Positions 2,256 to 19,049 of a stretch of DNA of 20,060 nt are shown here, piece after piece. This DNA is from a virus. The notes under the pieces were generated by a model. The model was not told the origin of the DNA. It was given only the letters and a program-made list of their open reading frames with translations, and searched no databases. Location: positions 1 to 20,060 of the IMG/VR virus record IMGVR_UViG_3300031629_000110; one strand, written 5' to 3'. The position numbers and the translations under genes are program-made. The first letter of the stretch is position 1; every line of letters starts with the position of its first letter.

Positions 2256-3332
2256 ATGGCTTTCGCAAAAGCTAGTGGCTATGCCAACTTACCAAACGGT
2301 AACTTTAGTCCAATCATTTATTCACAAAAAGTCCAAAAGACTTTCCGCAACACATCTGTAATTGAAGATATTACCAATACCGATTATATGGGCGAAATTG
2401 CTTCATATGGCGATAGTGTTAAGATCATCAAAGAACCAGAAATTACTGTCTCAGATTATGCGCGTGGCACAGCAGTGGCCGCACAGAACCTAAGTGACGG
2501 AGATTTCTCACTTACCATCGACCAAGCGAACTACTTTATGTTCAAGATCGATGACATTGAAGCTGCTCACAGCCATGTTAACTTCATGGACTTAGCGACT
2601 GACCGTGCCGCGTTTAAACTTCGTGACACCTATGACGCTGAAGTACTAGGTTACTTATCTGGTTTCGAGCGTAATGCTGGTAACACAGCTTGGATTGCTC
2701 GTACTGCCGCTAACGGCACTAAGGCTGATTCTGCTGCTGGTGCTGACGAATTGTTGCTTGCTAACAAGTTAGACATTACCGATTTCGGTGGTTCTGACAT
2801 TGGTGGTACTGAAGCAGCAGCCTTACACGCATTGACTTCTATTCCTCTTGCCGCTGGCGGTGGTTCTGGTGCTATCACTAGTCCTCTTGCAGTTCTTAAC
2901 CGAATGGCTCGTAAGATGGATGAAGCTAACGTGGACACAGCAGATCGTTGGTTCGTTGCTGATCCAGTGTTCTACGAATTGCTAATGGATGAAGATTCTA
3001 AATTCATCAATAGTGATTTCGGCGGTGGCGATGAACTTCGCAACGGTCGTGTAGGCAGCGGTCTTATCCGTGGCTTCAAAGTGTATAAGTCTAACAACCT
3101 ACCTTACATGGGTACTGGTGCGGGCACTTCTGCCTCAATCGGTTCCGAAGTGAACTTTGGTACTGTTGTAGCAGGACATAAGTCTTGCGTAGCTACTGCC
3201 CAGCAGTTGGCTAAGACTGAAAGCTACCGTGATACAGCATCTTTTGCTGATATCGTGCGCGGAATGCAGTTATACGGTCGTAAGATCCTCCGTCCAGAGG
3301 CTCTAATTACTGCTAACTACAACTTAGCGTAA
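2256..3332 (+). CDS. major capsid protein (HK97 fold expected)
   Basis: The 358-residue protein forms the head shell. The N-terminal part (FSPIIYSQKVQKTFRNTSVI, then EDITNTDYMGEIASYGDSVK, then a PEITVSDYARG segment, residues about 17-70) and the following SLTIDQANYFMFKIDDIEAA segment are the pattern I know from major capsid proteins of many podo- and myoviruses. The C-terminal part after about residue 230 (WFVADPVFYELL, then GLIRGFKVYKSNNLP) matches the P-domain/A-domain style of HK97-fold proteins. The middle (about 150-215) is rich in Gly, Ala and Ser and may be a loop or small insertion. It has its own leader, a strong AGGAG site, the codon bias expected of a highly expressed gene, and a strong terminator after it. 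Confidence 0.92.
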   Translation: MAFAKASGYANLPNGNFSPIIYSQKVQKTFRNTSVIEDITNTDYMGEIASYGDSVKIIKEPEITVSDYARGTAVAAQNLSDGDFSLTIDQANYFMFKIDDIEAAHSHVNFMDLATDRAAFKLRDTYDAEVLGYLSGFERNAGNTAWIARTAANGTKADSAAGADELLLANKLDITDFGGSDIGGTEAAALHALTSIPLAAGGGSGAITSPLAVLNRMARKMDEANVDTADRWFVADPVFYELLMDEDSKFINSDFGGGDELRNGRVGSGLIRGFKVYKSNNLPYMGTGAGTSASIGSEVNFGTVVAGHKSCVATAQQLAKTESYRDTASFADIVRGMQLYGRKILRPEALITANYNLA

Positions 3333-4123: not shown

Positions 4124-5980
4124 ATGGCTGATCGCGTACAGTCCTACAAGGTAATATGCGGCGGCGGGCTTAACAGTAACGAGAATCATCTAGATCTAAG
4201 TGAAAATGCCCCCGGCTCCGCTACCCGATTAGTTAACTACGAAGTTAGCCTATTTGGGGGATACCGCAGAATTGAAGGTTTCTCTCCTTACAATGCTAAT
4301 GCCAACCATCAAGAAATAGACCCCGTTAATACCGAGGGTAAAGTCTTGTCTGTCGCAATCTTCAAAGACGACAACCTAGACACTACAGTCATAATTGCTA
4401 CCCGTAAGGTTAAGACCTTTACCTACACAGCCACGGCATCCCAGACAGCATTTACTGGCGCAGATTCAAACTCAAGAACGCTAGACATTAACAACGCAGC
4501 TAATACGGTTGTTACAAAGACTACGGGTTCTACCACAACAACCCTAACGGTTAGCACTCACTATAGTATCAGCGGTAACACAGTTACGCTGGGTACGGGT
4601 GCAACAGTAGGGGACACCATCACAGTAGATACAAACGAGTATAAATACTATCGTTATGTAGCCTACTCAGCATGGGCACCCTATACCACGGGCATAGTAC
4701 ACAATTTCAAAGATGGTGTTAGAACAGTCTCTAAACTTCGCCACGTTAGCTTTAACTTCGGCGGTGGTAACAGGATATGTTTCGTAGACGGTGTGAATAA
4801 CGCTGTTCTCTATGATGGTACCAACTGGAAAGCTATCAGCCCAAGTGGCTCTGGTGGCAGTTCAAGCCCGGGAGGCCCAAGTGCCTTAGCCCGACCTGAA
4901 TTGGTTGATGCATTTGAGAACCATCTATTCCTAGGTGGAGATCGAGTCGCACAGGCGACAATAGCCTACTCTGCCCCATTAGATCCTCTTACATTCACAT
5001 CAGCCGCTGGTGCAGGTCAGTTAGCCATAGGCTTTGACGTAGTGCAGTTTAAACCGTTCCGTGGTGACCTATTTGTATTTGGTGATAACGGAATTAAGAA
5101 AGTATCCCCTGACGTGACTGCTGGATTCGTGTTAGATCAGATTACTACCAACGTAGGTTGCATTGCCCGAGATTCCGTATTGGAGATTGGTGGTGACCTA
5201 GTGTTCTTAGCACCCGATGGACTACGCCCCGTAGCGGGAACAAGTCGAATCGGTGACGTTGAGTTAGAGACTATCTCTAAGAGCATACAACAACTACTTA
5301 CTGCGCTTCCACAAGACTACGATTTATCTACCCTCAATGGTGTGGTAATTCGCAGCAAGTCCCAGTTACGTTACTTCATAGGTGACGATACTACCTTTAC
5401 CACCGATAGCTTCGGCATCATTGGTGGTCTTCGGTCGGCTGACCAAAGGTTAGGTTGGGAGTTTGGAGAGCTAGTGGGCATTCGTGCCAGTTGCTGTGCT
5501 TCGGCATATGTTAACTCAAAAGAGCTAGTCCTACACGGTGACTACGACGGCAAGGTCTATCAGCAAGAGACTACCAACCAGTTTAATGGGGCAGACATCC
5601 TATCCGTATACACCACGCCCTTCTTTGACTTTGGAGATACCGAAGTTAAGAAGACCATGCGTAAGGCCAACACATTTATACGGGCTGAAGGCCCTCTGAC
5701 TTTGAACATGGCGGTATCGTATGATTGGGAAGATCCCAACACAGCCAGCCCTAGTTCCTATTCGCAAGAGTCTAAAGGCGCACCAGTACGCTATAAAGGG
5801 AAGAACATTAATTATGCAGGTACCAACATTAACTATGGTGGAACAGAGAAACCCATCATTACAACCAGCCTACAGGGCACTGGCTATTCTTGCCAGCTTA
5901 CCTTTGTTACTTTGGGGAATTTTGACCCTTACAGCATACAAGGAATCGTTTTTGAATTTAGCATCGCGGGGAGACGTTGA
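4124..5980 (+). CDS. tail nozzle protein (T7 gp12 / tail tubular protein B-like) with an inserted domain
   Basis: The protein has 618 residues. The N-terminus (GGGLNSNENHL, then PGSATRLVNYEVSLFGGYRR, residues about 13-50) is the signature I associate with nozzle proteins of marine podoviruses. Later segments (LARPELVDAFENHLFLGG, FKPFRGDLFVFGDNGIKKV, LVFLAPDGLRPVAGTSRIGD) are repeated beta strands that fit the propeller-like nozzle. Residues about 99-168 look like an insertion rich in Thr, with a TATASQTAF...YSISGNTVTLGTGATVGD pattern. This pattern resembles domains usually found in tail fibres, and a related block occurs in the next gene. The nozzle closes the tail tube and fibres attach to it. 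The stop TGA at 5978-5980 overlaps the next ATG as TGATG. Confidence 0.82.
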   Translation: MADRVQSYKVICGGGLNSNENHLDLSENAPGSATRLVNYEVSLFGGYRRIEGFSPYNANANHQEIDPVNTEGKVLSVAIFKDDNLDTTVIIATRKVKTFTYTATASQTAFTGADSNSRTLDINNAANTVVTKTTGSTTTTLTVSTHYSISGNTVTLGTGATVGDTITVDTNEYKYYRYVAYSAWAPYTTGIVHNFKDGVRTVSKLRHVSFNFGGGNRICFVDGVNNAVLYDGTNWKAISPSGSGGSSSPGGPSALARPELVDAFENHLFLGGDRVAQATIAYSAPLDPLTFTSAAGAGQLAIGFDVVQFKPFRGDLFVFGDNGIKKVSPDVTAGFVLDQITTNVGCIARDSVLEIGGDLVFLAPDGLRPVAGTSRIGDVELETISKSIQQLLTALPQDYDLSTLNGVVIRSKSQLRYFIGDDTTFTTDSFGIIGGLRSADQRLGWEFGELVGIRASCCASAYVNSKELVLHGDYDGKVYQQETTNQFNGADILSVYTTPFFDFGDTEVKKTMRKANTFIRAEGPLTLNMAVSYDWEDPNTASPSSYSQESKGAPVRYKGKNINYAGTNINYGGTEKPIITTSLQGTGYSCQLTFVTLGNFDPYSIQGIVFEFSIAGRR

Positions 5981-8900
5981 TGGCGGGATATACTAGACAG
6001 TCAGTAGCGGACATTATTAACGGTGCGAACATTACTGCACCACCACTTAATGCTGAATTTAACCAGTTATTAGCCGCTTTCAACGCCTCAACAGGACACA
6101 CCCACGACGGGTCTACGGGCAGCGCACCTAAGCTACCTTTAACTACGTCTGTGTCTGGTTACTTACCCGCTATTCACGGTGGTTTCGGTGGTCGTAACAA
6201 TAACACAGCGACTGCTGATCCTGCTGCTACAGATGATAACACCGCAGGTTATGCACCCGGTTCGATCTGGATCAACACTTCCACGGGTTATACCCACCTG
6301 TGCTTATACAATACAACTAACAATGCTAACTGGGTAACCGTAGCGGCAATCAGCAACACTAACATCATTGCCCCTAAAGTTAATAATACAGTTACATTAG
6401 GTACGTCTACTCTACAGTTTAAAGACATCCATATCGACGGAGTTGGTTACATTGACGATATCAACGCAGTCACTATGTCCTCTACGGGTAATGTCGATGT
6501 AGGTGGTGTTCTTACTGTTTCATCCAACACCGCTATAGGTGGAACCCTTGCCGTTACAGGTGCAAGTACTCTTACGGGTAATACCGTAGTATTAGGTAGC
6601 CTAGGCGTCACGGGCGGAGCTATATTCTCCAACACTGTAAATGTATTAGGCGATACAACATTAGGTAATGCTACTTCAGATACCGTCACCTTCACTGGCC
6701 GGGTAGACTCGGATGTACTCCCTGCTACAGACGGTACACATGACTTAGGTTCTACCACACAAGAGTGGCAGGATCTTTGGGTTGATGGTACAGCTAACAT
6801 CGATGCCCTAGTGGCAGATACCGCAGATATTAACGCGGGTACTATCGATGATGCTACTATCGGCGCTTCTACTCCTACTACTATCGTTGGTACTACCATT
6901 ACAGGTACGGCCTTCGTAGGCCCTATCTCGGGTGCTGTCACAGGTAACGTGTCGGGTAATGTAACGGGTAACCTACAAGGTAATTCAAACGGTGCTCACA
7001 CGGGTACAGTTGCAGGTAACGTAACAGGAAACTTAGCAGGTAATGTAACCAGTACAGGTACTAACGTCCTAGCTACGGTAGACATTGGTGCAGGTTCTAT
7101 TGATGGTACTGCAATCGGTGCTGCTTCTGCTAGTACTGTAGTCGGTACCACTATCACTGCTACTAACTTCGTAGGCCCAATTGCGGGTGCAGTTACTGGA
7201 GATGTAACGGGTGATGTTGATGGTGATCTAACAGGTAATGTAACGGGTAACGTCTCGGGTAACATAACCAGTACAGGTGCAAGTTCATTCACGGACTTGA
7301 CCATCAACGGTTCACTAAACATGAACTCAGGTACCGCAGCCACAGTAACGGGCCTAAGTGCTCCTGTGCAAGGTTCCGACGCAACTACCAAAACCTATGT
7401 TGATAGTGCAGACGCCCTAAAGCTAAATCTAGCTGGTGGTACTATGTCTGGTGCCATCGCCATGGGTACAAGCAAAATCACAGGTCTGGGTACTCCAACA
7501 GCCACTGCCGATGCTGCTACCAAAGGTTATGTAGATCAGGAAGTGTCTGACTTGGTTGCTGCGGCTCCCGGGGCATTGGATACTTTAAATGAACTGGCTG
7601 CTGCATTGAACGATGATGCATCTTTCCATACTACTATAACAAACAGCATTGCAACTAAACTACCTAAAGCGGGTGGCACCATGACGGGTGCTATTGCTAT
7701 GGGTACAAGCAAAATCACAGGTCTAGGTACTCCTACGGCTGCTGCCGATGCAGTGACTAAGGCTTACACGGATTCAGCCGATGCATTAAAGCTAAACCTA
7801 ACAGGTGGAACCCTTAGTGGTGCCCTTGCTATGGGTACAAGCAAGATTACTGGCTTAGGTGCTCCTACAGCGGGTGCAGATGCTACTACTAAGACTTATG
7901 TAGATGCAGGCGAAGCCTTGAAGGTATCTAAGGCGGGAGACACCATGTCAGGTGTTCTTGCAATGGGTGCTAACAAGATCACAGGTGTAGCTAACCCTAC
8001 CCTAGCGCAAGACGTAGTGACTAAAAACTATTCAGATACATTGTTTGGTTCTACTACTGCGGCTGCTACCAGTGCTTCTAACGCTGCTACCTCAGAGTCT
8101 AACGCTAGTACGAGTGAAACTAACTCATTAAACAGTGCGAATAGCTCGGCTGCTTCTTTAGCTACATTCGTAGGTCAGTATGTATCTCAGTCAGGTACAC
8201 CTTCTTCACCGGGTACTGGTGACTTATGGTTTGATACTGGCGCTGCTATTATGAAGGTTTATAATGGCTCTGGTTGGGTATCTGCGGGTTCTGCTGTTAG
8301 TGGTACAAACAATAGTGTTCAATACACGGCTACTGCAAACCAAACTACTTACGCTGCTGTTTATGATGCAGGGTACTTACAGGTATACCTTAATGGTATC
8401 CGCTTAGATGCAGAAGACTACACAGCTACTAACGGCTCTAGTGTTATCTTGGATACGGGTGCTGCTGTTGATGATGTAGTGTTTATACACTCATTTGGTA
8501 CGTTCTTATTAGCGGATCATTATAGTAAGACTGCTTCTGATGCTAGGTTTGAGCCTATTGATAGTGCTTATACTAAGTCAGAAGCTGATACTAAGTATGC
8601 AGAGACTGCCTCTGCAAACACCTTTGCATCTTCACAGACCTTTTCTGCGGGCGTAGATGTAACAGGTACCGTAACCACAAATGGTTTGACAGCTACTAGC
8701 TCAACTAACGGTGTTAGAGCTACCATAGGAAAAACGGGTGGGGCTAACCTAAACGTATATGCGGATACAAACACAGTGTACTTGGCAGGGGATGCAACCC
8801 TAGCTAACGCATACATCATAGACCAAGCCAACAACAACCTACAGTTTAAGGCTAATGCCGCTGAACGTATGAGGGTGGATGCAAGTGGCATAGACGTAAC

Positions 8901-12557: not shown

Positions 12558-13637
12558 ATGACAGTAAACATAAGCAAACCCTCGATCAACATCAGGGAGA
12601 AACTATCAGAACTAGACAAGCCTAGCGGTATAGCTGGTGAAGCTGTACTAAGGGCTGACAGTGTTCAGGAGATTCGTAATAGTATTGGAGCAGGTCGTAA
12701 GAACCTTATTATTAATGGTGGGTTTGATGTATGGCAGCGTGGTACTTATACGACTGCTACTAATGTATCGTCAGGGTTTCAGTCAGATAGGTGGAAAATA
12801 GCTCAATCTGCAACAACAGGCACTATTCAGGATTTAGGGGGTTCAGTTCGTCTTGAAGTCACAGGTGCAGGTACAGGCACTCTCCGTATGTACCAGCCAA
12901 TAGAAGATAAAGGTTTATACAAAAGAATCTCAGGCAAAACACTTACCTTCTCGGCATGGGTTAAGTCAAACACAGCTAATGCTCGTATAGAGTGCTTTAA
13001 AGGTAATGGTGTAGGTTGGGATGGTTGGGATAGCGCCCATACAGGTGGAGGCGCTTGGGAGAAGCTCTCAGCCACTTACGTACTTGCTGACATATCTAGC
13101 CTGACAGACGGGGCTTTCAGCGTACAGGTGGGCTTAGATGGCTACAACAGTGCTGACGTAGCACTAGCTGTAGGCGACTATTGTGAAATTAAAGATGTCC
13201 AACTAGAACTAGGCTCCGTAGCCACTGACTTTGAACACCGCAGTTTCGGAGAAGAGTTGCAGCTTTGCAAACGCTATTACGAGAAGTCGTTTGCATATAG
13301 TGCTGTCCCTGCAAATGGCTCGTCTGCTACAACTTTTGCTACATCACCTAATGTTAGTCTTGGCGTTTTACTGTGGTCAGGCCCAAATGCAAGGAACATT
13401 GCTTATGAAGTTGAAAAAAGAGTAACCCCTACTGTTGTCAGGTACGGAAACAGTTCGGGTTACTGGGGGTACATAAATGCAGGTGGGTCACCCTCGGGTT
13501 CAGACAATACGCCTATATTTCATGCAAACATCTTTTGTCAGACAAATACCCCCAAAGTATTAGTTGTAACTAATCAGGCTTCGGGTAATCCCTTATGGAG
13601 TATTTCAGGACATTGGACGGCGGAGGCGGAGCTATAA
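12558..13637 (+). CDS. carbohydrate-binding-module-like tail fibre protein
   Basis: The protein has 359 residues. The N-terminus (NISKPSINIREKLSELDKPS) is a short attachment-like segment. From about residue 47, KNLIINGGFDVWQRGT starts a jelly-roll domain that runs to about 221, with strands such as GKTLTFSAWVKSN and CEIKDVQLELGSVATDFEHR. This is the CBM-like pattern found in many phage fibre proteins. The LQLCKRYYEKSF segment and the C-terminus ending SGHWTAEAEL are also familiar from phage receptor-binding proteins. It directly follows another lectin-like fibre, with two bases between stop and start and a GAGGA site inside the upstream gene. The two are likely parts of the same adhesion apparatus. 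The glycan target cannot be told from the sequence. Confidence 0.83.
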   Translation: MTVNISKPSINIREKLSELDKPSGIAGEAVLRADSVQEIRNSIGAGRKNLIINGGFDVWQRGTYTTATNVSSGFQSDRWKIAQSATTGTIQDLGGSVRLEVTGAGTGTLRMYQPIEDKGLYKRISGKTLTFSAWVKSNTANARIECFKGNGVGWDGWDSAHTGGGAWEKLSATYVLADISSLTDGAFSVQVGLDGYNSADVALAVGDYCEIKDVQLELGSVATDFEHRSFGEELQLCKRYYEKSFAYSAVPANGSSATTFATSPNVSLGVLLWSGPNARNIAYEVEKRVTPTVVRYGNSSGYWGYINAGGSPSGSDNTPIFHANIFCQTNTPKVLVVTNQASGNPLWSISGHWTAEAEL

Positions 13638-13638
13638 C

Positions 13639-14319
13639 ATGACTATTGAAACAGTAAAAATACAATCCCAAGGCTGCCTAATCAACGGCAACATGAGCGT
13701 ACCTAACGACCCAGCTAACCGCCACTACCAGATGATCCTAGACTGGATCAACGAAGGCAACACACCTACTGGTGCTGACGTTATAGCTCCTGACTATGTA
13801 GCCCTACGCACTGGCCCTGACGGGTACGCTTCCACAGGCGACCAACTAGGCATGATTGCTGATGGCACTCAAGCTGCCCACGTAGCCGCTGTTAAGGCTG
13901 CATTCCCTAAGAGTATCACTGGAGGCACTACATTAGCTGCCGTACCAGCAGAGATCCTTACAGCAGCAGCATACAAGCTATTCGCCTCACAACTTGCGGA
14001 CTATACGCAGGCTATTCTCCGCTTGGGGAAATACGTGGTATCTGTTGGTCGTGTTGAACTAACCGAGATGCAAGCTACAGGTGAGCAATTGTGGAATGAA
14101 GAGACTATGGAGCTTGAGGACATTCTTGAGTCTGTAGTAACTCAGACAGCCATTGAAGCCGTTGAGCCTACAGTTGAAGTGACTACTTATAGTGACGACA
14201 TTGATGCAGAGCCTACAGTATCCACAATCACTAACCCTTTAATCACCGCTGATGTAGCAGAGAGAGCAGCAGCACAAGCTGTTGTTGATGCTACTCCACA
14301 GCCTGTTAAAGATGCGTAG
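13639..14319 (+). CDS. possible tail fibre assembly or tail accessory protein
   Basis: The protein has 226 residues. Its N-terminal part (CLINGNMSVPNDPANRHYQM, then ILDWINEGNTP) and GYASTGDQLGMIADGTQAAH followed by an AAVKAAFPK segment resemble phage tail-assembly or tail-accessory proteins encoded after fibre genes. The middle (about 105-165) is helical and acidic, and the C-terminal part is low-complexity Thr/Val/Ala. There is no signal peptide or membrane segment. The start is one base after the upstream stop, with GGAG at about 13628. Its last bases overlap the start of the first exported protein by eight bases, which ties the adhesion block to the exported block. Whether it is a chaperone or a virion part is open. 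Confidence 0.68.
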   Translation: MTIETVKIQSQGCLINGNMSVPNDPANRHYQMILDWINEGNTPTGADVIAPDYVALRTGPDGYASTGDQLGMIADGTQAAHVAAVKAAFPKSITGGTTLAAVPAEILTAAAYKLFASQLADYTQAILRLGKYVVSVGRVELTEMQATGEQLWNEETMELEDILESVVTQTAIEAVEPTVEVTTYSDDIDAEPTVSTITNPLITADVAERAAAQAVVDATPQPVKDA

Positions 14320-14839
14320 ACTCTTATGGCTGGCCTTGCTATTGCCTGCACTGGCTATAGCTGACCCTATCGTTACAGACTCTACTACAAACAGTACTGT
14401 CCACACCACGGGTAGTGTCACAACGACATTAAAGTCACCACCACCATCGGCTATATCCCCATCCCTATCCGGGGGTAACTCTGACTCATGTACCGTCGGA
14501 GTAGCAGGTGCAGTGCAGACACAGATCTTAGGTATCTCAGCAGGTACTACAGCCAGAGACCTTAACTGTGAAAGGCTAAAGAATGCTAAGACATTGTACG
14601 ACATGGGTATGAAAGTAGCCGCCGTATCAGTGTTATGCCAAGACCTACGAGTCTTTGATGCAATGATAATGGCTGGAACACCTTGCCCATACAACGGCAT
14701 CATTGGTGCCGATGCTAAGATTGCATGGGAGAATGATGAAGAGAAGGTGCCTAAGCCCGAGGAGAAATCCAAGTTCGACTCTCAGAAGTTCTTATTAAGT
14801 ATGGGCGGCGCAGTACTGGGCTTGCTACTGATCCTATGA
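14312..14839 (+). CDS. exported protein 1: signal peptide, four cysteines, C-terminal membrane anchor
   Basis: From the ATG at 14312 the protein has 175 residues and begins with a classic Sec signal (MRRLLWLALLLPALAIA, cleavage before DP). Longer in-frame starts at 14282 and 14288 would put extra residues before the signal, so 14312 is preferred. A Thr/Ser/Pro-rich stretch follows (about 19-58), then a compact domain with cysteines at 60, 86, 109 and 125 (the SDSCTVGVAGAVQTQ and YDMGMKVAAVSVLCQD segments). After a charged Lys/Glu linker a hydrophobic tail at 158-175 should anchor it in the inner membrane with the domain in the periplasm. Four cysteines fit two disulfides. I recall similar sequences in other marine phages but know no function. 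Confidence 0.78.
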   Translation: MRRLLWLALLLPALAIADPIVTDSTTNSTVHTTGSVTTTLKSPPPSAISPSLSGGNSDSCTVGVAGAVQTQILGISAGTTARDLNCERLKNAKTLYDMGMKVAAVSVLCQDLRVFDAMIMAGTPCPYNGIIGADAKIAWENDEEKVPKPEEKSKFDSQKFLLSMGGAVLGLLLIL

Positions 14840-15705
14840 AGAAGTTAGCTGTTGTGGCTTTGTTAGCAATCTATGCTACAAGCGCACACAGTGAGTATTT
14901 ATACGGCATCACAGGGAATATGGCAGCCACTGGACATACTTGGGGAATGAATAGCGTAGGCCCTAGCAATCAAAGGGGTATGAGAATTAATGGTGTGTAC
15001 TATCAGTATACGCCTATCAAGAACACAGAAGACGACATGTTAGTCCATGTCAGGAACAAGAGAGTAGGTGGTGATGGTTACATCTTCTCAAGTACCGACG
15101 ATTGGAGCGGCCTACCGGGTGGTATAGCTATCACCAAAGGCTTCGTTATAGATAACCTACCCATTGAACTATGGGGTGAGGGTTCTATCGATATAGAAGG
15201 TACAGGTTCAGTAGTAGATGCTAATGTTGTCTACAGCTACAAGTATAACGAGGGATGCACAACCCCGATGGCAGATCCATCCTGTCCCGGTTATGCAGAT
15301 GCAGTGTTAGCTATGATGCGTGATAGCACAGTTGAATACTACGATCCCATGGGTGACAGCAATATCTCTGACGTACTAGACGAGAAAGTAGATCTAGACG
15401 AAGAGGATAAGAAAGAAAACGAAGAAGATGAAGACAGGGGTAGGCTAGAGCGTATTCTAAGCGGGGTAGATGAATCAGTCCTCTCCACTAATATCCTCGC
15501 ACAAAACCTATTAATGTTCGCTATGACGAATAACCCATCAATGAATCCTTATTACGATAAGAAGTTGGTGGGTGGGGTATATAAGGAAACGGTTGTTCTT
15601 CATGGGGGAGAGTTGCCAGACAACAAGAAAGGGGCCAGAGCGGGTCTAGCCCAGCAAATATTGCATACCCAAATGATAAGTATGCAGTATGACAAAACGG
15701 AGTAG
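14836..15705 (+). CDS. exported protein 2: secreted, two cysteines, acidic segment
   Basis: The protein has 289 residues with a clear Sec signal (MKKLAVVALLAIYATSAHS). Residues about 20-140 look beta-rich, with aromatic motifs (GGDGYIFSSTDDWSGLPGG and IELWGEGSIDIEGTGSV). A GCTTPMADPSCPGY segment carries the only two cysteines (141 and 150), nine residues apart, which probably form a disulfide. Residues about 181-200 are strongly acidic, and the C-terminal 80 residues look helical and soluble. There is no membrane anchor besides the signal. The ATG overlaps the upstream TGA as ATGA, so it is translationally coupled. The family is unknown to me by function. Possible roles include a periplasmic or outer-surface factor and interference with host surface structures. 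Confidence 0.78.
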   Translation: MKKLAVVALLAIYATSAHSEYLYGITGNMAATGHTWGMNSVGPSNQRGMRINGVYYQYTPIKNTEDDMLVHVRNKRVGGDGYIFSSTDDWSGLPGGIAITKGFVIDNLPIELWGEGSIDIEGTGSVVDANVVYSYKYNEGCTTPMADPSCPGYADAVLAMMRDSTVEYYDPMGDSNISDVLDEKVDLDEEDKKENEEDEDRGRLERILSGVDESVLSTNILAQNLLMFAMTNNPSMNPYYDKKLVGGVYKETVVLHGGELPDNKKGARAGLAQQILHTQMISMQYDKTE

Positions 15706-15708
15706 AAC

Positions 15709-16206
15709 ATGAAAAAGTTACTATTGGTGAGCTTAATACTTGCCTCAAACGCACCAGCATTCGCTGAAGAGACCCCCATTACGGGTAATGTTCAAACTAG
15801 ATGCCTAATCACAACTGATACTAATGGTGTGTTCGGTAACCCTTCGCCTACTAAGTTAAGCACAGCCTCTACCGATGGTGGTGTTGTTCCTGTTGTACGC
15901 TACGACGTAACACTTGCCGATGCTTATCTAGCTAAGGTAACTACGCCTACTGCATTTAGCTCAAGCCCTGCATTAAGTGACTCTGTGTCATGGACAGGAT
16001 CTACCGCCGTTACTAAGACGACTGACGCAGGTATGTCTATCTATGAAACTAACAAGGTTACCTACGGCCAGACTACACAGTTTGATTTAACGATTGCAGG
16101 CTCTACTTGGTTCTCTTCTGAATCAGCAGCATTGTACGGGGTTAACAAGTCGTTCCCCGGTGGCAGCTACACCGCCGTCATACTAGCTGAATGCATTGCT
16201 AAATAA
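15709..16206 (+). CDS. exported protein 3: pilin-like beta-sandwich candidate
   Basis: The protein has 165 residues and starts with a Sec signal (MKKLLLVSLILASNAPAFA). The mature part is rich in Thr, Ser and Val and alternates hydrophobic and polar residues, as beta-sandwich proteins do. It has one cysteine near the mature N-terminus (32) and one four residues from the end (162). A GSYTAVILAECIAK C-terminal strand recalls the final strand of fimbrial or spore-coat-U-like subunits. The resemblance is in general form only, and no family motif is firm. GGAG at about 15699 serves the ATG, three bases after the upstream stop. It could be a secreted structural subunit, but its role is unknown. Confidence 0.72.
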   Translation: MKKLLLVSLILASNAPAFAEETPITGNVQTRCLITTDTNGVFGNPSPTKLSTASTDGGVVPVVRYDVTLADAYLAKVTTPTAFSSSPALSDSVSWTGSTAVTKTTDAGMSIYETNKVTYGQTTQFDLTIAGSTWFSSESAALYGVNKSFPGGSYTAVILAECIAK

Positions 16207-16570
16207 CCTTAGAGCACTACTGTCTCTATTAGTGATTACACTTAGTGCCCCTGTGTATTCACATGAGATGACACCGACATATCCCATATTCACGGATTCG
16301 TTTATGGCAGGTATATCGGTTACTACGATGAATCTATTCAATAAGAGAACCGATGTCTCTTACTATGAGATAGGGGTATTTACCAAGGAGTGGGAACCAA
16401 TCCCCTTTGTATCACAGTACACGGTAATCCCCATGGAGTATTTGGACACCGTAGCCTTTGATGTCTATGTAAGCAACCTCTCGCTTGGTTCTGTGGAGTA
16501 CATATGTTCTGTATCACAATTAGCAGTCGGGTCTACCGTGTCATCCAAGATCTGTTCGAGAGTTAAGTAA
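16196..16570 (+). CDS. exported protein 4: small periplasmic or surface protein, TTG start
   Basis: The protein has 124 residues. The frame has no ATG before the hydrophobic signal. The TTG at 16196 gives MLNNLRALLSLLVITLSAPVYS, a good signal peptide, and a GTG at 16232 would cut into it. The start overlaps the upstream gene by 11 bases with no strong ribosome site, so it likely depends on coupling. The mature protein (FNKRTDVSYYEIGVFTKEW, then VAFDVYVSNLSLGSVEYICS) looks beta-rich and Ig-like, and ends in SSKICSRVK. Its two cysteines (104 and 120) could pair. It superficially resembles half of a pilus chaperone, but at about 100 mature residues it is too short for a full two-domain PapD-type chaperone. 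Confidence 0.7.
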   Translation: MLNNLRALLSLLVITLSAPVYSHEMTPTYPIFTDSFMAGISVTTMNLFNKRTDVSYYEIGVFTKEWEPIPFVSQYTVIPMEYLDTVAFDVYVSNLSLGSVEYICSVSQLAVGSTVSSKICSRVK

Positions 16571-16995
16571 TGGGTAAGCTCGTACTTGCAGCTTATACGC
16601 TTTTTCTGTTACTACTGATGCTAAGTACCACTGTACTTGCAGGTAATTCGCTTTCTCTGCAACTACCCAGTAGCAGCGGCAGCTATCAGTCAGACAAGTT
16701 TAAGACGGGTGACCTTGATTGCTCTAATGCTATAGGTGGCACCATTAACCTAGAGTTTGGTATGACAGGCATTATCAATAACGCCACCAGCCTATGGGAC
16801 GCTTCTGATTCAGGTGCATTCCCTAAGTCTAAAGATATAGGCATATTCGCACGGATCATCATGCCCCTTAATGCACCGAAAGAACGGATTAACTGCAACA
16901 CCCTGTACTTACTAGAATTGAATAAGAAGCGCCTCGAGATAATGAAATTAGAGACTGAGCTAAACGAACTTAGACGGCTACAGTTAGGCGGATAA
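16570..16995 (+). CDS. exported protein 5: signal peptide plus C-terminal coiled coil
   Basis: The protein has 141 residues. Its Sec signal (residues 1-24, ending TTVLA) is followed by a domain with an LDCSNAIGGTINLEFGMTG segment and IGIFARIIMPLNAPKERINC, holding cysteines at 51 and 109. A helical end (LYLLELNKKRLEIMKLETEL and beyond, about 112-138) looks like a coiled coil. There is no cysteine right after the signal, so it is not a lipoprotein and not a typical o-spanin. The ATG overlaps the upstream stop as TAATG. The coiled-coil end invites pairing with itself or with the adjacent membrane coiled-coil protein. I recall similar sequences in other marine phages without a known role. Confidence 0.75.
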   Translation: MGKLVLAAYTLFLLLLMLSTTVLAGNSLSLQLPSSSGSYQSDKFKTGDLDCSNAIGGTINLEFGMTGIINNATSLWDASDSGAFPKSKDIGIFARIIMPLNAPKERINCNTLYLLELNKKRLEIMKLETELNELRRLQLGG

Positions 16996-16996
16996 C

Positions 16997-17560
16997 ATGG
17001 CAGAAATAGAATACGGTGGCATCAAATTAGGTGGCAGTAAACTACTTTTAATAGTACCCCTACTTGGCACCCTCTTAGGCGGCCTCTATGGGGGTTTTGA
17101 GGCGTATCAGCGTTATCTTGATATGGAGGCTAGGATCAATGAGTTCGTCTCCCCAGACCTCTCAGAATACGATACACGCATAGCCGTCATGGAAGGGAAG
17201 TTTGCCATAATAAGCAAAGAGCTTGGCCTACTAAAAGATGAAATATCCTTGATTAAAGAAGACACCGAGGAACAGTACATTACTATCAAGGATCTTAAAC
17301 AGTCTATACGGGACGATATTAACCGCCAAGAGAAGATCATTGATAAGGTTGAAGATGACATTGCAGGTGTTGAGACCGACGTTAGAGCTACCATAGAGAG
17401 TGCAGAAGGTAGATTCGAGAGTAAGCGTGACCAACTACAGAGTGATTACGAACAAAAGTCTGACACAATCAGAGTAGACGTAGAAAGAAAACTAACTGAC
17501 CTTGAGACAAGGTTAAATAACAAATTACAACGGGCTTTAGATAACCCGTTAGCTAACTAG
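16997..17560 (+). CDS. membrane-anchored coiled-coil protein, candidate i-spanin (Rz-like)
   Basis: The protein has 187 residues. A short cytoplasmic start (MAEIEYGGIKLGGSK) leads to one membrane segment at about 15-32 (LLLIVPLLGTLLGGLYGG). A long charged coiled coil follows from about residue 42 to 180 with heptad-like hydrophobics. This is the topology of inner-membrane spanins, which span the periplasm and fuse it with the outer membrane at lysis. Its place directly before the endolysin supports this. It is longer than a typical Rz (about 150 residues), and no lipoprotein partner with a lipobox was found nearby or embedded in it. A scaffold or membrane-tether role for the exported block is an alternative. 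There are no cysteines. The ribosome site AGGCGGA lies nine bases or fewer upstream. Confidence 0.7.
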   Translation: MAEIEYGGIKLGGSKLLLIVPLLGTLLGGLYGGFEAYQRYLDMEARINEFVSPDLSEYDTRIAVMEGKFAIISKELGLLKDEISLIKEDTEEQYITIKDLKQSIRDDINRQEKIIDKVEDDIAGVETDVRATIESAEGRFESKRDQLQSDYEQKSDTIRVDVERKLTDLETRLNNKLQRALDNPLAN

Positions 17561-17565
17561 GAATT

Positions 17566-17961
17566 ATGATCATGGCTTATAAATTAGGTAATAGCAGTTT
17601 AAATAACCGAGCAGGTGTAGACCCCCGACTTATAGAGATCAGTGACCTTGCAATTAGCTTATCCAACATTGACTTTGGTATTCCTTCTACTGGTGGGCTG
17701 CGTACCACTGAAGATCAAGCCGAGTTGTTCACCTCCGGGGTCTCTAAAGCAGACGGACGTACCAACAAATCCTACCATCAGTCGGGAAAAGCCCTTGACG
17801 TGTACGCTTACGTTGACGGCAAAGCAAGCTGGGACAAACTTCATCTTGCCTTAATCGCTACCGCCATGCTACAGGCATCTGCCCAGCTTGGTTATAAGTT
17901 AAAGTGGGGCGGTCTATGGAAGTCGTGGCAGGATATGCCTCACTTTGAACTGGAGGACTAA
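17566..17961 (+). CDS. endolysin, peptidase M15 type (L-Ala-D-Glu / D-Ala-D-Ala peptidase)
   Basis: The protein has 131 residues and cuts cell-wall peptides at lysis. The M15 zinc site is clear: SYHQSGKALDVYAY gives His71 and Asp78 in an SxHxxGxAxD motif, and DMPHFEL gives His126, with Asp123 as probable catalytic base. The D-x-x-H spacing matches that of the T5 endolysin. GLRTTEDQAELF (about 44-55) is the usual early motif with the conserved Arg46. The length is normal for this family. It has no signal peptide, so it needs the holin encoded next. An ATG at 17572, giving MAYKLGNSSL, is nine bases from the AGGA at 17559-17562. The ATG at 17566 is only three bases from it, so 17572 may be the true start. 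Confidence 0.92.
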   Translation: MIMAYKLGNSSLNNRAGVDPRLIEISDLAISLSNIDFGIPSTGGLRTTEDQAELFTSGVSKADGRTNKSYHQSGKALDVYAYVDGKASWDKLHLALIATAMLQASAQLGYKLKWGGLWKSWQDMPHFELED

Positions 17962-17962
17962 C

Positions 17963-18406
17963 ATGGGTATGTTTTCAGCACTAATCAGCCCGATAGCCGA
18001 CCTAGGTAAGACCTATCTAAGCGGTAAGAATGATATAGCTAAAGCTAAACAGGCAGCAGCTATTATAGGCTTGAAAGCAGAAGCCGACGTTAAAGTAGCT
18101 GGAGTAAGGGCTGCTAACAAACTCGCGGACAATGGACAGACTCAAGAGTTTAACCTAGACCTAGTGGCTATGCAGCAGATGGAGAAATCCTTCTTAGACG
18201 AGATTATGATAGCCCTACTGTTGGTTCCTATCGCTGCATCGTTCCTTGGTTACCAGACAGAAATAACAGAAGCATTTGAATCATTTGCTGCGATGCCTGA
18301 GTGGTATCAGTATTTAGTTATAGGCGTGTATGTTGTTAAATTCGGAATGCGTGGAATGCTTACCAAGCTAATGTCAGGTAAGTTTAGTGGGGTTAAGTTA
18401 AAATAG
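17963..18406 (+). CDS. holin (GTA-holin-like membrane protein)
   Basis: From the ATG at 17963 the protein has 147 residues. A TTG at 17945 would add residues in front, but GGAGG at 17952-17956 fits 17963. An amphipathic start (MFSALISPIADLGKTYL) and an Ala/Lys-rich helical stretch (about 25-75) precede two membrane segments at about 79-97 (DEIMIALLLVPIAASFLGY) and 114-130. Between them lies MPEWYQYLV. This layout is the pattern of 3TM/GTA-type holins, with the N-terminal helix possibly acting as the third segment. The end is basic. Its place directly after the endolysin supports the holin role: it permeabilises the inner membrane and releases the endolysin. The gene overlaps nothing and starts one base after the endolysin stop. 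Confidence 0.8.
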   Translation: MGMFSALISPIADLGKTYLSGKNDIAKAKQAAAIIGLKAEADVKVAGVRAANKLADNGQTQEFNLDLVAMQQMEKSFLDEIMIALLLVPIAASFLGYQTEITEAFESFAAMPEWYQYLVIGVYVVKFGMRGMLTKLMSGKFSGVKLK

Positions 18407-18584: not shown

Positions 18585-19049
18585 TTGAAATACATAGTCC
18601 GTACCCCAACTCTCGAAGATTACGACCAGATAAATCACTTAGGTCAGTGGTTCCAAGAGAATAGTTATTATGCTAAATGCGGCTGGTCTACGGAGAAATC
18701 CCTTCACTGGGTATCTACAGGTGCCGACCCAGACTCAACTACGTTTATGCGTGTTGTTGAGTTAGATGGAAAGGTCATTGGATTTTTCTTAGGTTATGTA
18801 ACTGAATACTTCTTCTCTTCTAAACTAATCGCTCAAGATATGGTGATGGTGTTCTACCCCGAACACAGAGATGGGATAGGTAAAGCATTAATCAAATTGC
18901 TTAGGCAGTTTTACAAGTGGGCCGAAGAAAAGGGTGCTCATGAAATTTGTATTGGAGTCACGTCAGGAATTGCCGGGACAGGATACGAGAAATTAATACT
19001 CAAGCACGGCTTCAAGAAAGTCGGCTTAATAATGAAACGAGAGGTGTAA
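18585..19049 (+). CDS. GNAT-family N-acetyltransferase
   Basis: The protein has 154 residues, the usual length of a single GNAT domain. It would move an acetyl group from acetyl-CoA to an amine, and the substrate is unknown. Strand beta4 and motif A are visible as AQDMVMVFYPEHRDGIGKAL (about 83-102). The acetyl-CoA loop is HRDGIG, with His94 where Gln or Arg is most common. The IKLLRQFYKWAEEKGAHEIC helix-strand follows, and the YEKLILKHGFKKVGLIMKRE end is the typical motif B and last strand. The TTG start is preceded by a good AGGA. The gene has its own strong promoter and precedes the internal virion gene by three bases. Phage GNATs may modify virion or host proteins, but nothing here shows which. 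Confidence 0.88.
   Translation: MKYIVRTPTLEDYDQINHLGQWFQENSYYAKCGWSTEKSLHWVSTGADPDSTTFMRVVELDGKVIGFFLGYVTEYFFSSKLIAQDMVMVFYPEHRDGIGKALIKLLRQFYKWAEEKGAHEICIGVTSGIAGTGYEKLILKHGFKKVGLIMKREV

Follow-up and report, generated by a model that had tools for sequence, protein, structure and literature searches.

The window analysed here is a viral contig of 20,060 bases (IMG/VR record IMGVR_UViG_3300031629_000110), a fragment, so that genes absent from it, such as those for a spanin or an usher, may lie outside. Judged by its major capsid protein (2256-3332, + strand), which shares 72% identity with those of the roseophages CRP-212 and CRP-3 and 59% with that of HMO-2011, the phage is an HMO-2011-type podovirus. 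On its + strand lies a cassette of six genes, here named A to F (14312-17560), predicted to encode five Sec-exported proteins and one inner-membrane coiled-coil protein: A (14312-14839; 175 residues, four cysteines), B (14836-15705; 289 residues, two cysteines), C (15709-16206; 165 residues, two cysteines), D (16196-16570; 124 residues from a TTG start, two cysteines), E (16570-16995; 141 residues, two cysteines) and F (16997-17560; an N-terminal transmembrane (TM) segment and a long coiled coil). The genes are tightly packed, with overlaps of 4 bases (A/B), 11 bases (C/D) and 1 base (D/E) and gaps of 3 bases (B/C) and 1 base (E/F). A first-pass annotation of this DNA had described a block of five genes, A to E, and its open reading frames (ORFs), with their positions, lengths, overlaps and cysteine counts (4, 2, 2, 2, 2), were all recovered. 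The block is indeed conserved; however, that annotation missed the sixth gene F, which we count as part of the natural unit because it co-occurs in every locus that is not cut by a contig end.

The export of A to E, which had been proposed together with disulfide pairing, is borne out by the families as a whole. Signal-peptide-like N-termini are found in 94% (A), 93% (B), 94% (C), 98% (D) and 100% (E) of the non-redundant members (83-92 sequences per family), as judged by a rule-based test (positive n-region, hydrophobic core, AXA-like site) rather than by SignalP; all 10 exported Escherichia coli proteins used as a control were positive. By the same test, 17% of downstream and 13% of upstream neighbouring genes are signal-peptide-like, the capsid, tail and fibre genes of the window are negative, and F is half-positive, presumably owing to its TM segment. 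The twelve cysteines of A to E are near-invariant: columns 60/86/109/125 of A, 32/162 of C, 104/120 of D and 51/109 of E are conserved at 100%, and 141/150 of B at 96-98%. From their sequences, the five proteins are thus predicted to be exported and braced by conserved disulfide pairs. That they are instead virion-associated proteins with incidental hydrophobic N-termini would fit the position of the block after the tail-fibre genes. Yet five independent signal-peptide-like N-termini, kept in 93-100% of homologs alongside invariant cysteine pairs, the negative scores of the window's own structural genes, and the occurrence of the block in phages with unrelated capsids make this reading very unlikely; a literature search found no proteomics of a phage carrying A and F.

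The cassette is widespread, being present in hundreds of uncultured marine phages. A search with B retrieved 39 viral contigs, and gene-by-gene searches of IMG/VR confirmed at least 553 relatives of D, 594 of C and 578 of E; these three counts are lower bounds, and the frequencies reported here hold for the retrieved loci. In 249 of 249 loci examined, which partly overlap and contain 128 distinct D proteins, the genes stand in the order ABCDEF on a single strand, and each missing gene falls at a contig end. Co-occurrence of the block genes in related phages, a check put forward in the first pass, is therefore upheld at each intact locus. Junctions are mostly of -4, -1, +1 or +3 base pairs, with some longer overlaps. 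In five loci (L113, L124, L079, L088, L105) additional genes, spanning as much as about 2 kb, separate E from F, and F thus need not adjoin E. Of 23 large contigs with the cassette, five encode Gp23, the capsid protein of T4-type phages, and one encodes an SU10-type capsid protein, while the P22-coat Pfam model matched none of the cassette contigs. Since capsids of these unrelated types accompany it, the cassette crosses phage families, namely HMO-2011-like, T4-like and SU10-like phages. The cassette genes were not found in the stretches of CRP-212 and HMO-2011 that were examined, and B, C, D and E are without a match among 50,697 phage records. Gene C was found in just two of 84,980 genomes (bacterial bins), in both cases on viral-looking contigs, one of which bears an SU10-like capsid gene; a cellular origin of the cassette was rejected on these grounds.

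None of the proteins A to F has a convincing match in Pfam, NCBIfam or PADLOC, and neither scans of A to F against Pfam, PHROGs, NCBIfam and PADLOC nor sequence-profile searches of A to E against the Protein Data Bank (PDB) gave a usable annotation, which agrees with the earlier statement that the block matches no known lysis or tail family. Literature on this six-gene cassette was not found. The proteins resemble no known family, and the cassette looks like an undescribed viral machine of the host cell envelope.

Annotated phages give access to the cassette through its outermost genes. Relatives of A are present in the Pelagibacter phages HTVC023P, HTVC202P, HTVC115P and Mosig, in Votkovvirus S28C10, and in the roseophages CRP-207 and CRP-810, in operons where A is followed by an unrelated exported protein and then by a small protein with a TM segment and a coil that ends in NPL. 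Profile comparison with hhalign links these operons to the cassette at a probability of 100 for A and 98.9 for F, while no link was obtained for B or E; hhalign does not support homology between the large acidic proteins that pelagiphages carry in the interior position and either B or the E coil, though the architecture is alike. Using the A proteins of pelagiphages and roseophages to guide further scans yielded 48 and 67 testable loci, respectively. An ORF with a TM segment and an NPL ending lies within 4.5 kb downstream of A in 47 of the 48 and in 66 of the 67, against a background of 0 in 1,507 other ORFs, and the full pattern of A, exported interior and F is seen in 113 of the 115 loci that could be tested. 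Close relatives are numerous among these loci, so that the counts are not independent events, yet the pattern holds in three phage groups. The interior ORFs are signal-peptide-positive in 44 of 46 pelagiphage-type and 79 of 80 roseophage-type cases and are acidic, with a median net charge of -67 and -32, respectively, and B to E are absent from the A/F loci of both types that were examined. A and F thus form a constant frame, within which the exported interior is exchangeable.

The genes of these operons are annotated as hypothetical, 'lysozyme', 'OmpA' or 'DUF2730'. The lysozyme label looks like a misannotation in the NPL-ending coiled-coil proteins of the F type CRP-207 gp73 (L044:3292-3873) and CRP-810 gp51 (L046:6174-6596). 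Directly upstream of A, the same two phages encode short unannotated lipobox lipoproteins with an A-like cysteine core (L044:1710-1937 in CRP-207 and L046:4567-4827 in CRP-810), which match the A profile at E values of 2e-5 and 2e-6; the A family may hence include outer-membrane lipoproteins. In locus L048 (MW202481.1), a clear A homolog (5848-6351) is unannotated, minus-strand ORFs having been called in its place, and the protein that follows bears the label 'transport protein tonB'.

Protein A comprises a signal peptide, a Ser/Thr-rich stretch, a conserved four-cysteine core (CERxKxxKxLxxxGMKVAAVxxLCQDxRVxxAMxxAGTPCP) and a C-terminal hydrophobic tail anchor; it matches phrog_20531, of unknown function, at E=1e-12. 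The anchor is kept in 77 of 83 members, in line with the first-pass suggestion that one of the proteins is membrane-anchored at its C-terminus. Protein B has a signal peptide, an N-terminal beta-sandwich, the C141-C150 pair, a strongly acidic linker and a helical C-terminus that ends in Q[YWF] in 86 of 87 members. Behind its signal peptide, C consists of one beta-sandwich domain, in which C32 and C162 are invariant; it found no match in Pfam, among PDB sequences or in the phage collection. D likewise has a signal peptide and then a single domain of Ig/PapD-N-like type, its invariant cysteines being C104 and C120. In E, a signal peptide is followed by amphipathic beta-hairpin strands between the invariant C51 and C109 and by a C-terminal helix; the protein matches phrog_37374, of unknown function, at E=1e-4. 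F, for which no cleavable signal is expected, consists of an N-terminal TM segment and a long coiled coil with a conserved C-terminal NPLAN motif, NPL lying within the last eight residues in 72 of 73 members.

B, C and D share one frame in locus L013 and were modelled with AlphaFold2 as one readthrough chain, based on 89 aligned sequences. The predicted local distance difference test score (pLDDT) exceeds 90 over most of the length of the B N-terminal domain, C and D, and C and D are confidently predicted beta-sandwiches; the placement of domains in the fused models, at predicted template modelling scores of 0.32-0.35 (0.35 for B-C-D), is not interpretable. In the E-F model, F is a long coil of high confidence (pLDDT of about 95), and E shows a few amphipathic strands and a helix at moderate confidence. 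One protein had been proposed to end in a coiled coil; E is predicted to end in a helix, and the earlier structural impressions hold in part. A Foldseek search with this model gave no significant PDB match, and a BFVD search with the B-C-D model was swamped by multi-domain beta proteins. The clear single-domain PDB matches of the B-C-D model were the PapD-family pilus chaperones DraB, SfaE, FimC and Caf1M (Foldseek probability 1.00, E 4e-4 to 3e-3); they are read as D from their length of about 110 columns and the sequence pattern of D, query ranges being absent from the output, and Ig folds are common. The description of one protein as Ig-like is supported at this level, with no detectable sequence-profile relation.

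These folds bear on a second reading, in which the cassette builds a secreted pilus-like fibre or adhesin that holds cells or progeny together, with D as a mini-chaperone and C as the polymerising subunit. Pilus chaperones as the top single-domain matches and C as a single beta-sandwich with a terminal disulfide speak for it, as does the 'sibling capture' by curli proposed for other marine phages (PMC7029224). However, when the profiles of D and C were compared with eight K-12 chaperones and 18 fimbrial subunits, respectively, with signal peptides removed, hhalign gave no score above column-shuffled controls; an apparent probability of 69% for homology of C with fimbrial subunits stemmed from the signal peptide and vanished once this was removed. 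Furthermore, D lacks a second chaperone domain and a match to PapD_N (PF00345), and the incomplete 20-kb contig holds no usher-sized exported gene. A fibre is accordingly improbable; of the pilin-type subunit suggested earlier, the beta-sandwich stands but the relation to fimbrial subunits does not, and D has a predicted chaperone-like fold, while the profiles do not support its status as a chaperone-usher protein.

In the window, the cassette is preceded by a tail fibre gene (12558-13637, + strand; phrog_4492, E=1e-46) and followed, directly downstream of F, by a gene for an M15-family endolysin (17566-17961, + strand; Pfam Peptidase_M15_4, E=2e-9; phrog_465 endolysin, E=4e-43) and one for a membrane protein (17945-18406, + strand) that is holin-like by topology only, its match, phrog_2524 (E=1e-17), being without annotated function. 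After the lysis genes, a GNAT-family acetyltransferase is encoded (18585-19049; phrog_1249). Elsewhere in the window, a 618-residue protein (4124-5980) matches phrog_5107, named amidase/lysis, although its position suggests a tail protein instead. The place between fibre and lysis genes noted in the first pass applies to this window, but other loci have quite different neighbourhoods. Neighbours were surveyed in 39 non-redundant loci with both flanks, considering the three next downstream genes and listing the top 25 families. A cell-wall hydrolase was among these downstream genes in 11 of the 39 loci, the enzymes belonging to no fewer than five unrelated types (M15, lysozyme, GH108, GH19-like and SleB), a class-3 lipase in four and an Rz-like spanin in two; among the upstream families listed, there was neither a peptidoglycan hydrolase nor a class-3 lipase. 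In cultured relatives, too, M15 or holin-like genes are neighbours. The lipases adjoin the cassette in one phage group (L071:8010-8738, L086:8152-8856, L091:8614-9318, L110:7870-8577), followed by a holin-like TM protein where checked. Near F, about 22 of 128 loci encode a protein of about 110 residues that has two TM segments and an EF-hand-like motif, DxNGNGxID (e.g., L261:6752-7084, L241:6857-7162 and CRP-207 gp72), possibly a calcium-linked holin or regulator.

A further reading is that the cassette replaces Rz/Rz1, with F as the inner-membrane spanin and the exported proteins as its outer-membrane partner. The i-spanin-like topology of F (TM segment plus coiled coil), the lack of a lipobox ORF on the + strand of the window and the A-like lipoproteins ahead of A in CRP-207 and CRP-810 are in keeping with this idea. 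Against it, none of A to E has a lipobox cysteine at the predicted cleavage site, and four cassette-bearing phages (G016, G004, G007 and G012; loci L271, L273, L274 and L275) encode an Rz-like protein together with a lipoprotein whose gene overlaps or adjoins that of the Rz-like protein, in G016 as an Rz/Rz1-type pair about 1 kb from the cassette. Because of these coexisting pairs, substitution was rejected as a general role; it could survive only in phages without Rz/Rz1 and is the most improbable of the explanations considered.

We propose that the products of A to F assemble into a single Sec-dependent complex that is made late and resides in the host envelope. A, with a periplasmic four-cysteine domain and a C-terminal inner-membrane anchor, and F, with its inner-membrane anchor, a periplasmic coiled coil and the terminal NPL as a docking motif, would constitute a conserved inner-membrane base. 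The interior between them (here B, C, D and E; elsewhere one large acidic protein or one protein of about 275 residues) would be an exchangeable, disulfide-braced part reaching across the periplasm, which B may span through its acidic linker. Given that the cassette belongs to the late region and in many cases stands immediately ahead of genes for endolysin and holin, the complex would most likely target the envelope as infection ends, as an egress or lysis-accessory or a lysis-timing device, beside and not instead of holin, endolysin and spanin. An envelope complex of this kind is highly probable, while a lysis-phase role taken by itself is a guess that we place clearly below an even chance, and the proposal as a whole is held tentatively, at slightly less than even weight; what the data show is the conservation of the genes, their export signals and cysteines, the A...F frame and the predicted folds of C, D and the N-terminal domain of B, while assembly into one complex, membrane topology, span and timing are inferred. 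Several observations weigh against the proposal. Lysis genes are not always adjacent to the cassette, at least two of the hydrolases are encoded on the other strand, and in several T4-like loci the neighbours are nucleotide or sugar genes. In no fewer than four phages with the cassette, classic spanin pairs already provide for disruption of the outer membrane, so that any lysis role must be additional. Finally, the domain model of E is only moderately confident, and the relative positions of domains in the fused models cannot be interpreted.

The same base of A and F, with B to E facing outwards, could alternatively serve superinfection exclusion or receptor masking, as a complex of the periplasm or the outer surface. 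In favour of this, every interior protein is exported, and phage groups differ in their interiors but retain A and F, as would be expected of an arms race; moreover, a beta-sandwich domain is present in B, and the interior protein of one relative is annotated 'carbohydrate binding'. However, B to E are only moderately variable (mean pairwise identity 0.43-0.56), with C and E conserved like A, which is not the pattern of surface shields that evolve fast. Genes for exclusion are, as a rule, expressed early and come singly or in pairs, and no known defence family was recognised by PADLOC, in which F alone gave matches, marginal ones of the coiled-coil kind (E about 0.005). We regard exclusion or masking as rather unlikely, and a role in lysis or egress is weakly favoured over it.

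Tailed phages devote few of their genes to the space beyond the cytoplasm, and a block of four to five exported, disulfide-braced proteins is unusual. The cassette is kept intact across unrelated marine phage lineages, although only its framing genes A and F are visible in the annotated phage collection, as hypothetical proteins or, it seems in error, as lysozyme. Should the A...F frame prove to be a real apparatus, it would open a view of how abundant ocean phages handle the host envelope; cultured pelagiphages and roseophages carry the frame, which makes it testable now.

Among known systems, two-component spanins (Rz/Rz1) are similar in that F shares the i-spanin layout, its periplasmic side being inferred, and in that the cassette often adjoins endolysin and holin genes; they differ in their outer-membrane lipoprotein, which the cassette lacks, and the cassette has four to five further exported proteins. 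With a unimolecular spanin, A shares the C-terminal TM segment but not the lipobox. Chaperone-usher pili (PapD/FimC, FimA) are approached at the fold level, by the chaperone-like Ig domain read as D and by C as a small beta-sandwich of subunit size, whereas the cassette has a single chaperone-like domain, no sequence-profile relation and no usher in the window; since the likeness goes no further than a putative PapD-like fold, membership was rejected. The curli/type VIII secretion modules encoded by pelagiphages and the methylophage Melnitz (PMC7029224, PMC9004378, PMC9599517) are likewise multi-gene, exported modules of the outer envelope with unknown purpose that have moved between families of marine phages. 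They are, however, defined by CsgG/CsgF, unlike A to F, in which no curli domain was found; with positive controls, CsgG was absent from all 23 cassette contigs and all 42 A/F records, and a phage curli module was therefore rejected across these 65 records. A further likeness is to the A/F-framed operons of HTVC023P, HTVC202P, HTVC115P, Mosig, S28C10, CRP-207 and CRP-810, which share a homologous A, an NPL-ending F-type protein, an exported interior and the same order, and differ in having one non-homologous interior protein (in HTVC115P one large protein plus small genes) instead of B-C-D-E. The cassette and these operons may represent an unrecognised trans-envelope machine of phages, with A and F as base and an exchangeable exported payload, distributed over marine HMO-2011-like, T4-like, SU10-like and pelagiphage lineages. 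Its function, be it egress control, exclusion or a surface fibre, would be unlike that of holin-endolysin-spanin systems, curli and known exclusion proteins, a view to which we give nearly, but not quite, an even chance.

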